Origin: Solirubrobacterales bacterium
GTDB taxonomy: Bacteria > Actinomycetota > Thermoleophilia > Solirubrobacterales > Solirubrobacteraceae
Direction: 5' to 3'
Assembly: GCA_026392385.1 (NCBI GenBank)
Contig: JAPLCG010000018.1
Span: 1 to 46,457 of the forward strand
Length of the DNA stretch: 46,457 bases
Shown here: piece by piece, positions 3,637 through 9,335 of the stretch
Layout of the letters: each line of letters starts with the position of its first letter
Numbering within the stretch: position 1 is the first letter of the stretch
Translations under genes and position numbers: made by a program
Notes under the pieces: model-generated
The model's database searches: none
What the model was told of the DNA's origin: nothing
Seen by the model: the letters and a program-made list of their open reading frames with translations, nothing else

Positions 3637-3822
3637 TTGGAGTGTGGGAAGGGTTTTCCATTGCTGGGCGAGCCACCTGCAAACAGCTAAAGCTTCTCCT
3701 CGGCGGCATACGGAGTGCTGCTTGTCTTTCTACCACACGCCGCTGATCGCTGTCGTGAGTTTCCCTCTCAGAAAGATGACGCGATGTCACAGATGCCGCC
3801 TCCGACGCTATTCTCACGCGCC

Positions 3823-4212
3823 ATGACCTACATCGAACCAACTCAGGAACAGCTCGCCGAGCTGATCGCTGGCCCAGCTGGCCCCGTCGTAATGCTCAAC
3901 CTGCTGCGCTATACGCGCAACGAAGCGGGTGAACTTACCGGTCAGGACACCTATATGAAATACGCGGAGGCCGTGGCTCCGCTTCTCGCAGGAGTTGGCG
4001 GAAGCCCAATCTGGATGGGTCGTGGAGACCAAATTGTAATTGGTGACGACCATGAGAAATGGGACGCAGTCGTGCTGGTTCAGTACCCGTCTCGCGCCGC
4101 TTTCATTGAGTTTGCGACATCCGAGGCCTACGGAGCAATTAGCCACCTACGGATTGGCTCGTTGGAAGACTCGCGACTGATCGCCTGCACAGAAAACGCA
4201 CTCGCTGAATAG
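3823..4212 (+). CDS. DUF1330-like (dimeric alpha/beta barrel) protein
   Basis: MTYIEPTQEQLAELIAGPAGPVVMLNLLRYTRNEAGELTGQDTYMKYAEAVAP...WDAVVLVQYPSRAAFIEFATSEAY, typical DUF1330 pattern. Confidence 0.75.
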   Translation: MTYIEPTQEQLAELIAGPAGPVVMLNLLRYTRNEAGELTGQDTYMKYAEAVAPLLAGVGGSPIWMGRGDQIVIGDDHEKWDAVVLVQYPSRAAFIEFATSEAYGAISHLRIGSLEDSRLIACTENALAE

Positions 4213-4218
4213 GTTCGG

Positions 4219-5247
4219 TCAGCCGGCTGGCTGATCAACTACGAGAATCGTCAGGCCGCGCGTACGCTGATGGAAGTTGGCGCGCACGGCCTCAGGCGAA
4301 TCACCGCTGTCGATCGGCCACCACGCGGCACCAGTTGCTAATGCGGCAGGTTTTGCGAGCGCTGCCTCCGGTGAATCAGCGGCAGCTGCGATTGTCACAG
4401 GGACTCCCTCAGCGGTGGCAACAATCACCGTGTCGAGCTGGCCTAGAAGCGACTCTGCTGTAAGTGCAAGAACCACCGGCGTGCGAGGCCGCCCGAGTCG
4501 CAGCCCAAGCGCAAATGGGGCTCCCATGCCAGGGCCATCAGCCCCAGGCATAACGCTCCGCTCAAGATCACCAAAAAGTCCGGCCGTTGCAAGCGTCGCT
4601 GAACCTGTCAACGAACTGTCGTCAAGCGCTAGGACAAGGTCTGCGCCCGGCGCGGCCTTCGGCGGGCGCGTCTGGTGGCTTGCGGCTTGGCGGCCACCGC
4701 GCCGCCTTGCCCTGCGGAACAGGATCGGGAAGGACACATCGAGCCGAACTGGGCCAGCCGAATCGGCGATTGCACTCGCAAAGGCCTCGTCAATCATTGG
4801 CTCAAGCTGATCGGTCGAATCGCAGAGAAGCTGCTGCTTAGCGGCGCCGCTTAGGAACGCGCCGTGATCGAGCCCTTGGAAGACCTCATCGATCCGCGTG
4901 CGCTTAGCGGGCGGCTGGCATGGCGTCAGGTAGACAACCGGAGCCGAGGAGAGCTTCGCTGAGGCAACGGCAACCGCCTCATTCGCGACTCCCGGTCCTA
5001 GCGTGTTCATCACAACCGCCGGCCGGCCGCTCGCCAACCCATAGCCCTCAGCCATAAGGGCCGCGGCCCGTTCCGTGCGTGGGACGATCAAGCGCGGACC
5101 ATGGACGCGATCGAGTGCGTCCCAGATTGGCAGTACCTGCGACCCGGGGATTGAGAAGACGAAGTCGACGCCGAGCTCCTTGAGTCGCATCGCAACGCGT
5201 TCAGCGCCACTTGGCGCGACGCTGCCGATAAGCAGTGGGCGCCTCAC
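4219..5247 (-). CDS. ThDP-dependent enzyme-like protein, PYR-competent subunit with degenerate PP domain
   Basis: N-terminus aligns with acetolactate-synthase-type PYR domain (FSIPGSQVLPIWDAL...PRTERAAALMAEGYGLASGRPAVVMNTLGPGVANEA); C-terminus resembles PP domain but GDG replaced (VVLALTAESLLGQLD). GTG start overlaps the upstream gene stop (GTGA). Confidence 0.85.
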   Translation of the reverse strand: MRRPLLIGSVAPSGAERVAMRLKELGVDFVFSIPGSQVLPIWDALDRVHGPRLIVPRTERAAALMAEGYGLASGRPAVVMNTLGPGVANEAVAVASAKLSSAPVVYLTPCQPPAKRTRIDEVFQGLDHGAFLSGAAKQQLLCDSTDQLEPMIDEAFASAIADSAGPVRLDVSFPILFRRARRRGGRQAASHQTRPPKAAPGADLVLALDDSSLTGSATLATAGLFGDLERSVMPGADGPGMGAPFALGLRLGRPRTPVVLALTAESLLGQLDTVIVATAEGVPVTIAAAADSPEAALAKPAALATGAAWWPIDSGDSPEAVRANFHQRTRGLTILVVDQPAG

Positions 5248-6971
5248 TTGCGCAGAGCTCCTGCAGTCACGCGCAAGGTCGCAGCAAGGGCCGGACGGTC
5301 CTTAGCTGCTGCCAACAAACCACCAAGCGCAGCCGATCCAGCAAGCGGCCCGAGCGCGCCGTCAAGTTCAGCGAGAATCAGGTTCGCACCAACGAACGGG
5401 ATTGATCCCTTTTCAACACGAATGTCTACGACGAGCGGCTTGTTGCGCGGCTCCTGTGCGAGGCTCAGCGCTTGAGCTAGGTCGCTTGGCGTCCGGACTC
5501 GAATCGTCTCGCAGCCGTGAAGTTCAGCATGGCTCCGATAGTCAACCTCGGGTAGATCAGTGCCGATCGTGCGGTGACGGAAGAACAGCGTCTGAACCAG
5601 TCGAATCGCGTTCCAGGAGCGATCATCAAATACGAAAACTGCGATCGGCACTCCACGCTCCGCGAGTCCGGCAAGCTCACGCGCGCAGTAGAAGAATGCG
5701 CCATCACCGACAACCGCCCAGATTGGCCGATCTGGTTCAGCGAGCGCGGCACCTGCAGCCATAGGAATCGAAGCGCCAATCGACGCATGCTGTGATGGCA
5801 CGATCAGTGGTCGCAGCCATGCGTAAGACGCCAGCCACATCCCAGCAGCTCCTCCCTCACCAACCAAAATTGCATTTGCCGGAGCGGCGCTAACGATCTC
5901 GCGAGCGGCCAGCGGCGCACTCAGCCTGTCGCTGTCGCCAGCGCGGTGAGCCTCCTCGTCAACCAAACCTGACCACTTTGATCGCGCCTCGCTGAATCGC
6001 TCCACCCAGTTGTCTCGGGTCAGCGCCCCACCGCGAACGATTTCAGCCGCGAATGCTTTTGCAAAGACTCCAGCATCAATATCAACGGTTCGATCGGCTA
6101 TTCCATCGGTGCCAGGATTAAGCGCCACGCGCGTGACTGGGGCACGGACTAGCTTCGCATCGCTAAGCCCAAACCAATCGGCCTCCGAAAGGCCGCTTCC
6201 GAGTGCGAGCAGGTGATCAGCCCGCGTCAGTGCGTTAGTCCACGGCACTGTCCCCGCCGGTAGCAGCGGAATGTCCGCACCAAACAGAGCTAGGCAACGG
6301 TCAAGGGTGTCAGCAGCCATTGAGGTCGCCGAGAACGTCAGGCAGACAGGCGCCTGCCAGAGGCGTGCGAGCGCAGCGATCGACTCAAGCGCAGTCGTTG
6401 AGAGCGCGCCGCTGCCAAGCAGAATCACTGGCTTCTTGGCTTCGCGTAGCTCCTCAAAGGCCGGTTTCAGGTCAACAGATCCGCCAACCTCTGCTTGAGA
6501 ATCAACCGACTCTCTGATCGCACAGTTTGCTGCGACCGCTTTTACGACTGCAGCAAGATCTGAATCGCGATTCAGGACCAGCGAAACCGGTGCAGAAAGC
6601 TGTAGCGACTCGTTGCAACGCTCGGCAAGCCTTTCAGCAGACTCACCGGGCTCGACGATCAGCGTTGAACGGGAAGCTGTCTCAATCGCTGGCAGGGCTA
6701 CTTCGCGTTCCGTGTCACTCAGTTGGAGCACTGCGATCACAGGCTTGCGGTCGCCGCTTGCCGTTACAAGGCCGCTTGCGACCCTCAGTACATCAGCAAT
6801 CCCGCGTGCCGTAACAACCGCAGGGCGTCCGCTAGCCCTTGCTGCGCCATCAGCTGCATGTGCGGCCGCCTGCGGGTCTCGCATTGCGATCGCCCCAATC
6901 TCTAGGGCAAGTGATCCGGAAGCTAGAACGGGCAACTCTGCGGTCTTGCTTAGTTCTGCTTCTGTCGCCAT
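5244..6971 (-). CDS. ThDP-dependent enzyme-like protein, PP-competent subunit with degenerate PYR domain
   Basis: MATEAELSKTAEL...RDPQAAAHAADGAARASGRPAVV (catalytic Glu position lost), central domain, then GASIPMAAGAALAEPDRPIWAVVGDGAFFYCARELAGLAERGVPIAVFVFDDRSW. Confidence 0.88.
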   Translation of the reverse strand: MATEAELSKTAELPVLASGSLALEIGAIAMRDPQAAAHAADGAARASGRPAVVTARGIADVLRVASGLVTASGDRKPVIAVLQLSDTEREVALPAIETASRSTLIVEPGESAERLAERCNESLQLSAPVSLVLNRDSDLAAVVKAVAANCAIRESVDSQAEVGGSVDLKPAFEELREAKKPVILLGSGALSTTALESIAALARLWQAPVCLTFSATSMAADTLDRCLALFGADIPLLPAGTVPWTNALTRADHLLALGSGLSEADWFGLSDAKLVRAPVTRVALNPGTDGIADRTVDIDAGVFAKAFAAEIVRGGALTRDNWVERFSEARSKWSGLVDEEAHRAGDSDRLSAPLAAREIVSAAPANAILVGEGGAAGMWLASYAWLRPLIVPSQHASIGASIPMAAGAALAEPDRPIWAVVGDGAFFYCARELAGLAERGVPIAVFVFDDRSWNAIRLVQTLFFRHRTIGTDLPEVDYRSHAELHGCETIRVRTPSDLAQALSLAQEPRNKPLVVDIRVEKGSIPFVGANLILAELDGALGPLAGSAALGGLLAAAKDRPALAATLRVTAGALRK

Positions 6972-7001
6972 CGGGCCGAGCCTATCGCCCACCGCGCAAT
7001 A

Positions 7002-9335
7002 TCAGGAGCGTGGGTCTCGCTGACGATCGCTTGCTGGCGATGCGCCAACAGCTCCGATCGCCGGCGTTATGCCCTTGAAGCGCCTTAGCCGCAGGGCATT
7101 ACCGATGACAAACAGGCTTGAGAAGGCCATCGCCGCCGAAGCAATGATCGGCTGCAGCAGACCAGCGACAGCGAGTGGCAGCGCGGCGACGTTGTAACCA
7201 AATGCCCAGGCAAGGTTCCAGCGGATTGTCGACAGCGCCTTTCGTGAAAGCAGAATTGAGTCAGCGATTAGACGAGGGTCAGGGCGCAGCAGAGCGAGAT
7301 CGGCGGCCTCTACTGCAGCATCCGCCCCACCACCAACTGCGATGCCGAGGTCGGCGGCGACGAGCGCAGGCGTGTCATTGATCCCATCGCCAGCCATCGC
7401 CACGCGCTTTCCGGTTGCTTGGATCTCAATTACTGCGGATGACTTACCACCCGGCAGAACTTCAGCCCTGACCTCGCTAATCCCCAACTGGGCGGCAACC
7501 ACTTCGGCTGCTGCTCGCGAATCACCGGTAAGCAGCACCGGCCGAGCGCCAAGGCTCTTGATCGCTTCTACCGCCTGTACAGCACCCTCGCGCAGACTGT
7601 CTGACATTCCGGCCACAAGTCGAACTTCTCCATCCCAACCAGCCGCAACAACTGCGCGGCCCAACTCACGCTGTGAATCAACGGCAGCGCCCAGCGCATT
7701 GAGGCCAAGACCTTCCGCGACGAGGTGTTCCGGCCGACCAACGGTGACTCGCGTTCCGTTGACGGTTGCAGCGACACCAAGTCCGCCCTGTTCGAGCAGA
7801 TCCTCAAGCACCATTGCCTCTGTCGGTGCAGGCGCTTCAGCAGCAAGCGACCTAGCCGCAGGATGCGATGAGGCCGCGGCGACGCTCCCTGCAATCGCGA
7901 GCACCTCCGAGCGATCGTTCCCTTCAGCAACGAACAGTTCGGCAACTTCCAGCTGCCCGGTTGTGAGGGTTCCCGTTTTATCGAGAACAACAACATCAAC
8001 GTTTCGACTTGCCTCGAGAGCTTCCGGTCCTCTTACGAGAATCCCAAGCTGGGCGCCACGGCCTGAGGCGACCAGCAGGGCAGCTGGTGTAGCTAGGCCG
8101 AGCGCACATGGGCAGGCAACAACCAATACGGCAACCGCTGCAGTCAGCGCTCCTGCGGCGCTCGCACCAACTAGCAGCCAGCCAATGAATGTCAGCACTG
8201 CGAGGACGATCACGCTGGGGACAAAAATCGCACTGACCTGATCAACGATCTTCTGCACCGGCGCCTTGCGTGCCTGAGCATCACGAACAATCGCCGCAAT
8301 CCTTGAGAGCTCGGTGTTCTCGCCGACTTCGGTCGCCCTAACGATCAACCTGCCGCCAACATTGACTGTCGCGCCGGCGACCATGTCGCCCGGCCCGACC
8401 TCCTCGGGCAGGCTCTCGCCGGTCAGAATTGAGCGGTCCACCGAACTGCTGCCCGCCTCAACTTCACCGTCAGTCGCGATCCGCTCGCCCGGTTTAACGA
8501 CGAATCGGTCGCCAACCAGCAGTTCGGCAGCGGGTACAGATCGCTCACTGCCGTCAGCGTCAACAACGGTAGCCGCCGGTGGAACAAGGTCAAGCAGCGC
8601 TTCGACGGCAGCGCCCGCCCGACTCTTTGCACGACTTTCCAAAACTCTGCCGAGCAGTACGAGAGTCGTAACCGCAGCAGCAACTTCAAAGTAGACAGCG
8701 CTCCCAGCTGCTGATCGATCAAGCGTCAAGTCAAAGCCCATCGTCATTGACGACTCGCCAGCGCCCCCGAAGATCAGTGCGCCAAGCGACCATCCCCACG
8801 CAGCTAAGACACCAAGCGAAACAAGCGCATCCATACCAACAGTGCGGTGCCGCAAGGAGAGAAACGCAACTCGATGAAATGGCCAAGCGCCCCAGAGGGC
8901 AACTGGAGTAGCGAGTACGAGCGAGACCCACGCCCAGCCGTTGAATTGCAGCGCTGGGATCATCCCGATCGCCAGCAAGGGAACCGTTAGGCAGGCACTG
9001 ACGGCAAGTCGCGGTCCAAGTCCATCGCCTGAAGCCATTCCATGCGACGCGTGATCGTGCTGTTCGCCGCCATTCGATTGAGAGTGATGAGCACCAGCAA
9101 TAGCAGCCCCATAGCCGACCGACTTGACCGCTTCAAGGATCTCGTCCTGCGTGCTAGTCAGCGGCTCGAAACTAACCCTTGCTGAATCGGTCATCGCGTT
9201 TACCGATGCGTCGACTCCCGGCAGCCCATTAAGCGCTCGTTCGACCTTTACTGCGCAACCAGCACATGTCATTCCCGAGATGCTTAGGTCAAGAACCTCC
9301 GGCCGATCTGGAGTTACCTTTTCGCCAGTAGTCAC
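7002..9335 (-). CDS. copA: Copper-translocating P-type ATPase
   Basis: N-terminal HMA domain [65 protein letters not shown] start. Confidence 0.94.

Follow-up and report, generated by a model that had tools for sequence, protein, structure and literature searches.

A candidate heteromeric thiamine diphosphate enzyme of freshwater Solirubrobacterales whose two chains have lost opposite halves of the active site

Introduction

Can two neighbouring genes, each encoding a protein of the thiamine diphosphate (ThDP) enzyme type with one half of the active site degenerate, together make one working enzyme? The question is raised by positions 4219 to 6971 of a 46,457-nucleotide stretch of DNA from a Solirubrobacterales bacterium (GenBank assembly GCA_026392385.1, contig JAPLCG010000018.1; the whole stretch is called the window here), in which the gene for a large protein (LG) overlaps that for a small one (SM). 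In the pyruvate oxidase/decarboxylase superfamily of ThDP enzymes, the active site lies where the PYR domain of one chain meets the PP domain of a second chain. Structures of AcHACL, a 2-hydroxyacyl-CoA lyase (HACL), have the active site between two protein chains (PMC13327070). An earlier note on this locus had proposed that each of the two chains supplies one live half of such a site.

Results

The SM gene (4219..5247, minus strand) encodes 342 amino acids and the LG gene (5244..6971, minus strand) 575 amino acids from its ATG. The stop codon of LG and the start codon of SM overlap by 4 nt as GTGA (5244..5247, minus strand), and a GGAG motif stands about 11 nt 5′ of the SM start in the four species compared. 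The open reading frames, strands and overlap are as the earlier note described; its LG length of 582 amino acids depends on an upstream GTG and gives way to the conserved ATG at 6971, which matches the 572-575 amino acids of the relatives. SM consists of an intact PYR domain (residues ~10-178) joined to a degenerate PP domain (~200-342), and a central domain is absent from it by profile. LG consists of a degenerate PYR domain (~13-145), a central domain (~165-330) and an intact PP domain (~350-525). Pfam analysis of SM gave TPP_enzyme_N as the sole match (4e-28), and that of LG gave TPP_enzyme_C (2e-31) and TPP_enzyme_M (8e-12), with TPP_enzyme_N matched weakly and without its N-terminal part (2e-9, profile positions 28-99 of 119). 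Comparison of hidden Markov models (HMM-HMM) recognised a genuine PP relic in the second half of SM (E 3e-6) and a genuine PYR relic in the initial part of LG (E 7e-9). By profile, LG has all three domains of the superfamily set (PYR, central and PP), the PYR domain being weak, and the LG-SM pair also qualifies. Past its PP domain LG carries a conserved C-terminal tail (window 5247-5396) that reads IPFVGANLILAELDG in the genus and SFxxxEFEG in relatives.

The catalytic residues are divided between the two chains (all codons lie on the minus strand). SM keeps Glu59 (5071..5073), the standard Glu51 that activates the ThDP aminopyrimidine, and by alignment it keeps Gln124 (4876..4878), the homolog of AcHACL Gln128 and of Gln123 in acetohydroxyacid synthase (AHAS) (PMC13327070), and the Gly84-Pro85-Gly86 loop of the PYR domain (4990..4998). 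In the PP half of SM, alignment and HMM-HMM comparison place the degenerate motif ALTAESL (residues 261-267, 4447..4467) where GDG is expected, with TAE replacing GDG and the loop after the next, metal-ligand strand shortened. LG keeps Gly422-Asp423-Gly424 (5700..5708), the motif for the ThDP diphosphate and Mg, as well as Asp450 (5622..5624) at the metal-ligand position, 27 residues past the GDG Asp, where the plasmid AlsS in the comparison likewise has Asp, and, by alignment, Ile398 (5778..5780) as the hydrophobic wedge under the thiazolium ring. Ile456 (5604..5606) aligns with the carbanion-protonating Glu493 of AcHACL (PMC13327070). In the PYR region of LG the Glu is replaced by Pro33 (6873..6875), which is Ala in the three other species of the genus and Asp or Glu in distant relatives, G-I-A-D occupies the place of the GPG loop, and LG of the window genus lacks the start of the PYR fold (first helix and strand). 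The codons given earlier for Glu59, Pro33 and GDG are correct, and those for the LG Asp-Asp pair, put at 5623-5628, lie at 5622-5627.

Alignment with reference enzymes showed that neither window chain holds a PYR Glu and a GDG...N/D motif together; two LG relatives have both the Glu and GDG, yet without a normal GPG loop. Since a survey of the superfamily found Glu51 in 94% of members (3% have Val), Gly443 of GDG in 98% and Asp444 in 91% (PMC3534367), the loss of Glu51 in LG and of GDG in SM is unusual. Motif alignment, Pfam and HMM-HMM comparison all bear out the proposal that each chain has one live and one degenerate half. As for the residues kept, only the SM PYR domain facing the LG PP domain completes a site, and the LG PYR domain facing the SM PP domain makes none.

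LG and SM are therefore, most probably, the subunits of an obligate heteromeric ThDP enzyme of the pyruvate oxidase/decarboxylase superfamily with one composite site and one pseudo-site per pair; both a physical complex and its stoichiometry are what we infer. In such an enzyme, a homomeric three-domain ancestor would have been duplicated and the copies would have undergone complementary loss to give LG and SM. The chains would associate in the usual PYR:PP head-to-tail dimer, in which the SM PYR domain (Glu59, Gln124 and the GPG loop) would face an LG PP domain contributing GDG, Asp450, Ile398 and Ile456 to the working site, and the LG pseudo-PYR and SM pseudo-PP domains would pair as a dead, structural second site. 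Coupled translation of the overlapping genes would supply the chains 1:1.

The pair is present in 4/4 genomes of the window genus (freshwater Solirubrobacterales) with the same order, 4-nt overlap and neighbours, and in the three other species it is 54-57% identical to the window pair. A scan of named genomes with LG matched only JAPLCJ010000050.1, JAPLCH010000099.1 and WLNJ01000002.1, metagenome-assembled genomes of Solirubrobacterales/Actinomycetota that are genus mates. With the closest pair left out, identities within the genus are 47-57% for LG PYR vs 70-83% for LG PP, and 62-83% for SM PYR vs 46-66% for SM PP. For the closest genus pair (L028/L030), dN/dS is 0.086 in the LG pseudo-PYR domain, 0.070 in the SM pseudo-PP domain and 0.02-0.04 in the remaining domains, so the degenerate halves are being maintained and do not decay freely. 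These values bear on the possibility that a duplicated acetolactate synthase-like gene has left two decaying remnants, which the motifs missing from both chains and the central domain missing from window SM could suggest. With dN/dS at 0.02-0.09 in all domains of that pair, no stop codons, the ribosome-binding site and overlap intact and the pair conserved in 19 genomes of two classes, decay is hardly tenable. The earlier note had named canonical full-length versions in related genomes as a sign of recent decay; none was found at the locus, the pair is under purifying selection, and the distant relatives show this asymmetry in other states and are not intact single-chain enzymes.

These distant relatives were found with a profile of four SM chains run on 398 genomes of one phylum; in these larger runs, which covered that phylum, the best few candidates per genome were scored. 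The SM profile matched genomes of another class, in which the matched gene lies directly 3′ of a second ThDP gene. Profiles of the distant chains then detected SM in 15/32 genomes of the second class and LG in exactly the same 15, and the LG profile gave no further LG member in the 398-genome sample. LG members scored at least 739 bits vs 440 for other ThDP enzymes, and SM members, large fragments included, at least 451 vs 327 bits. Complete distant SM chains have 515-529 amino acids, their PYR-PP spacer having the length of a usual central domain, and residues 8-481 of one such chain match acetolactate synthase models; distant LG chains have about 600-620 amino acids. Wherever found, LG and SM are adjacent in this order (except that a contig end divides the pair of G740), and neither occurred without its partner among the genomes searched (4/4 in the genus, 15/32 in the second class). 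Orthologs occurring alone, which would have spoken against a heteromer, were thus never seen, and co-occurrence holds in all 19 genomes, with adjacency and LG-SM order in all but the divided pair of G740. What the earlier note had treated as a one-off case is a family of 19 genomes in two classes. In a plasmid collection, the matches inspected were single-chain relatives and included no pair. Further short TPP_N reading frames in relatives, considered as extra candidates, were dismissed as products of contig ends and, in one case, as a frame-broken ilvB. The latter, L062 (G018:C95:1-6000), appears to be broken by a frame change in a fragmented assembly, probably an assembly error.

Throughout the family the motifs follow the pattern of the window. 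Among the 19 SM chains, the Glu is kept in 19/19 and the Gln wherever its position is present, and GDG occurs in 0/19; among the 19 LG chains, GDG, Asp at the metal position and Ile six residues further on are each found in 19/19. The residue at the PYR Glu position of LG is Glu in two f32 genomes (G507 and G538), Asp in thirteen (twelve f26 genomes and G740) and, in the four genomes of the window genus, Pro or Ala. All three groups have an altered LG GPG loop, and distant SM chains have GAG where window SM has GPG. In family f26, mean identity is 57% for LG PYR vs 79% for LG PP, and 81%, 63% and 52% for the PYR, PP and central domains of SM, the central domain being its least conserved part. 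For the closest pairs of the genus and of f26, dN/dS is 0.02-0.16 in all domains except the f26 SM central domain (0.28). In both f26 and the window genus the live domains are best conserved and the degenerate ones less so, as a single composite site predicts.

Whether the window and distant pairs share one origin was approached with profiles and trees. In HMM-HMM comparison, the scores of window LG were 280 with distant LG, 181 with IlvB and 147 with distant SM, and those of window SM were 174 with distant SM, 155 with a HACL/OXC set and 86 with distant LG. The SM pseudo-PP domain by itself reached 68 with distant SM and no more than 43 with any other. The profiles compared differ in depth, so that these scores serve as a guide and do not amount to a test. 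Common to the LG chains are the motif xDxxWNxI(K/R) and a C-terminal tail that contains E(F/L)(E/D)G. In the PYR tree, LG and SM of the distant class are sisters (93/96), which is expected from gene duplication, and a single SM clade is not rejected (approximately unbiased (AU) test, p 0.36); the PP tree places LG and SM each to one side of a low-support branch. Trees of PYR and of central plus PP domains, with AU tests, do not separate an AHAS-like from a HACL-like parent. From these comparisons a common origin of the window and distant pairs seems likely, though not proven. The two could instead have undergone reciprocal decay independently and convergently, which concerns their origin and is compatible with a composite site: window SM lies nearer to HACL than to distant SM in the PYR tree (89/53), and the single SM clade is neither supported nor rejected. 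We consider convergence unlikely, though not negligibly so, given that the gene order is the same, the same chain has lost the same site, the shortened SM PP loop is common to both, the LG motif and tail are shared, and like chains score better with like.

The LG Glu seems to have been lost late, since it survives in two members. The likely order of events would be that the SM PP site was lost in all members, that the LG Glu was kept, softened to Asp or lost, and that the window genus lost the SM central domain too. On balance, and somewhat more guardedly than for the composite site, we favour the view that LG-SM is a new, obligately heteromeric ThDP family in which a homodimer gene was duplicated and two full-length chains lost opposite halves of the site. 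Its intermediates would still be living, with the SM PP site dead and the LG Glu kept in two f32 genomes, LG Asp in thirteen genomes, and LG Pro or Ala together with the SM central deletion in the window genus.

As to the chemistry, Glu is found at the position of Glu493 in AcHACL, mycobacterial HACL, sulfoacetaldehyde acetyltransferase and pyruvate decarboxylases. Pyruvate oxidase, AHAS and glyoxylate carboligase, in which the carbanion does not have to be protonated on the pathway, have Ile or Val there (PMC13327070). As LG has Ile at this position and SM keeps the Gln, carboligation, acyl transfer or oxidation of a 2-oxoacid (of the AHAS, glyoxylate carboligase or pyruvate oxidase type) would be more likely than plain decarboxylation to an aldehyde, a less certain prediction than that of the composite site.

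In the window, LG is preceded by a copper-type P-type ATPase gene (copA, 7002..9335, minus strand), located 5′ with a 30-bp gap to the LG ATG, and SM converges with a DUF1330 gene (3784..4212, plus strand); both neighbours are conserved in the genus. The block copA-LG-SM-DUF1330 (window 3784-9335) sits between wecA and the ATP synthase operon in 4/4 genus genomes; in two other genera of the family (G007 and G016) wecA lies near the ATP synthase operon without the block genes in between. A copper role for the pair was considered and set aside, copA homologs being common in the order and adjacency being the sole tie to copper. The genus also has its own IlvB, a PRK05858-type enzyme and a further ThDP gene read as MenD; with an IlvB of its own, it does not use the LG-SM pair to replace branched-chain amino acid synthesis. 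The neighbours of the distant pairs vary by genus and recur in acyl and hydroxyacid metabolism. A 4HBT-type thioesterase gene lies 5′ of distant LG in L079, L089, L105 and L106, and a ketopantoate-reductase-like gene in three; the same place is taken in other distant genera by TetR and metallo-beta-lactamase genes (L086 and L088) or by SCP2 (L085 and L087), with 3-hydroxyacyl-CoA dehydrogenase also in L085. MaoC too is among the neighbours. The pair might bind ThDP without being an enzyme, as a thiamine sensor or scaffold, for the neighbours in the window genus, a copper ATPase and DUF1330, give no clear pointer to a substrate. This is very unlikely, as the composite site keeps the catalytic Glu and Gln, GDG, the metal ligand and the hydrophobic wedge, and the distant neighbours include the ketopantoate-reductase-like, thioesterase, dehydrogenase and MaoC genes.

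Discussion

Several points weigh against a composite LG-SM enzyme as set out above. The complex is deduced from sequence comparison, and single-chain AlphaFold2 models are poor (pLDDT 55 and 47), most likely because the alignments held four sequences each; in a Foldseek search with the LG model AHAS structures ranked first, with TM-scores of only about 0.3, from which no geometry is claimed. Orthology of the window and distant pairs is argued from profile scores, gene order and shared motifs, and the trees back it weakly. Human HACL2 and carboxyethylarginine synthase, too, have Ile at the Glu493 position (PMC13327070), and the residue is for that reason not decisive for the reaction. Finally, two LG relatives still carry the PYR Glu, and glyoxylate carboligase works with Val in its place (PMC3534367; Ec_Gcl in the alignment), so that loss of the LG Glu alone is no proof of a dead LG site. 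LG could then be a self-sufficient homomer with a lost or weakened PYR Glu, and SM a regulatory pseudoenzyme subunit, for which the Asp of thirteen distant LG chains also speaks. We regard this as rather improbable: throughout, Glu and Gln persist in the SM PYR domain, the best-conserved SM domain in f26, whereas a purely regulatory SM would have no need of catalytic residues, and the PYR domain of LG is its least conserved in f26, no longer has the GPG loop and, among members of the window genus, also lacks its first helix and strand.

The composite-site enzyme resembles several known systems in part. Glyoxylate carboligase, which belongs to the superfamily, likewise lacks the PYR Glu and has Ile at the position of Glu493, but it is a single chain with its own PYR and PP domains. 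The SM PYR domain has its best match in 2-hydroxyacyl-CoA lyase (40% to the Methylibium homolog), and AcHACL heads the PDB list; HACL differs in being a single-chain enzyme, in its acid/base Glu493, which is Ile in LG (19/19), and in lower PP similarity, and SM reaches 78.5 bits with the HACL model NF058623, below its cut-off of 600. Sulfopyruvate decarboxylase ComDE and phosphonopyruvate decarboxylase RhiEF likewise have adjacent genes and take PYR and PP from different chains, but their chains are single-domain, and neither a degenerate partner domain nor a pseudo-site is present (PMC12141560); LG-SM shares with this type the two adjacent genes for PYR and PP, and its subunits are not single-domain. 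AHAS IlvB provides the best NCBIfam model class for both chains, shows the three-domain order of LG, and has Gln at one of the two catalytic positions and a residue other than Glu at the other; unlike LG-SM, AHAS catalytic chains are homo-oligomeric with both halves intact in one chain. The best AHAS scores of the window chains are 94 and 147 bits, far under the cut-offs; with TIGR00118, whose cut-off is 538 bits, the chains score 94 and 129 bits, and three distant chains score 219-266 bits, also under it. No gene for an ACT-type small subunit was noticed beside the pair, though no search was aimed at one.

Reciprocally degenerate domains are not known to us from the split-gene transketolase of Carboxydothermus. 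It is, like LG-SM, a ThDP enzyme encoded as two polypeptides, reconstituted as alpha2beta2, but it belongs to the transketolase superfamily (PMC7661550). The literature searched contains split ThDP enzymes and no pair of multidomain chains each with a dead copy of the other's half, in agreement with the earlier note, to which no described enzyme with this exact reciprocal decay was known. This points to the reciprocal decay of LG-SM as an undescribed form within the known split ThDP enzymes.

In ThDP enzymes with a PYR:PP interface, the textbook active sites are shared by identical chains, and communication between the two sites has been proposed. If the composite-site reading is true, one live and one dead site per dimer would allow a direct test of whether both sites are needed. 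LG-SM would also show a route from homomer to obligate heteromer, a stepwise natural record of the passage from a symmetric to an asymmetric, mutually dependent enzyme, and the graded relatives would make that route testable by single-residue swaps in purified proteins. Genes annotated merely as acetolactate synthase-like can, on this evidence, conceal a separate two-gene enzyme family.
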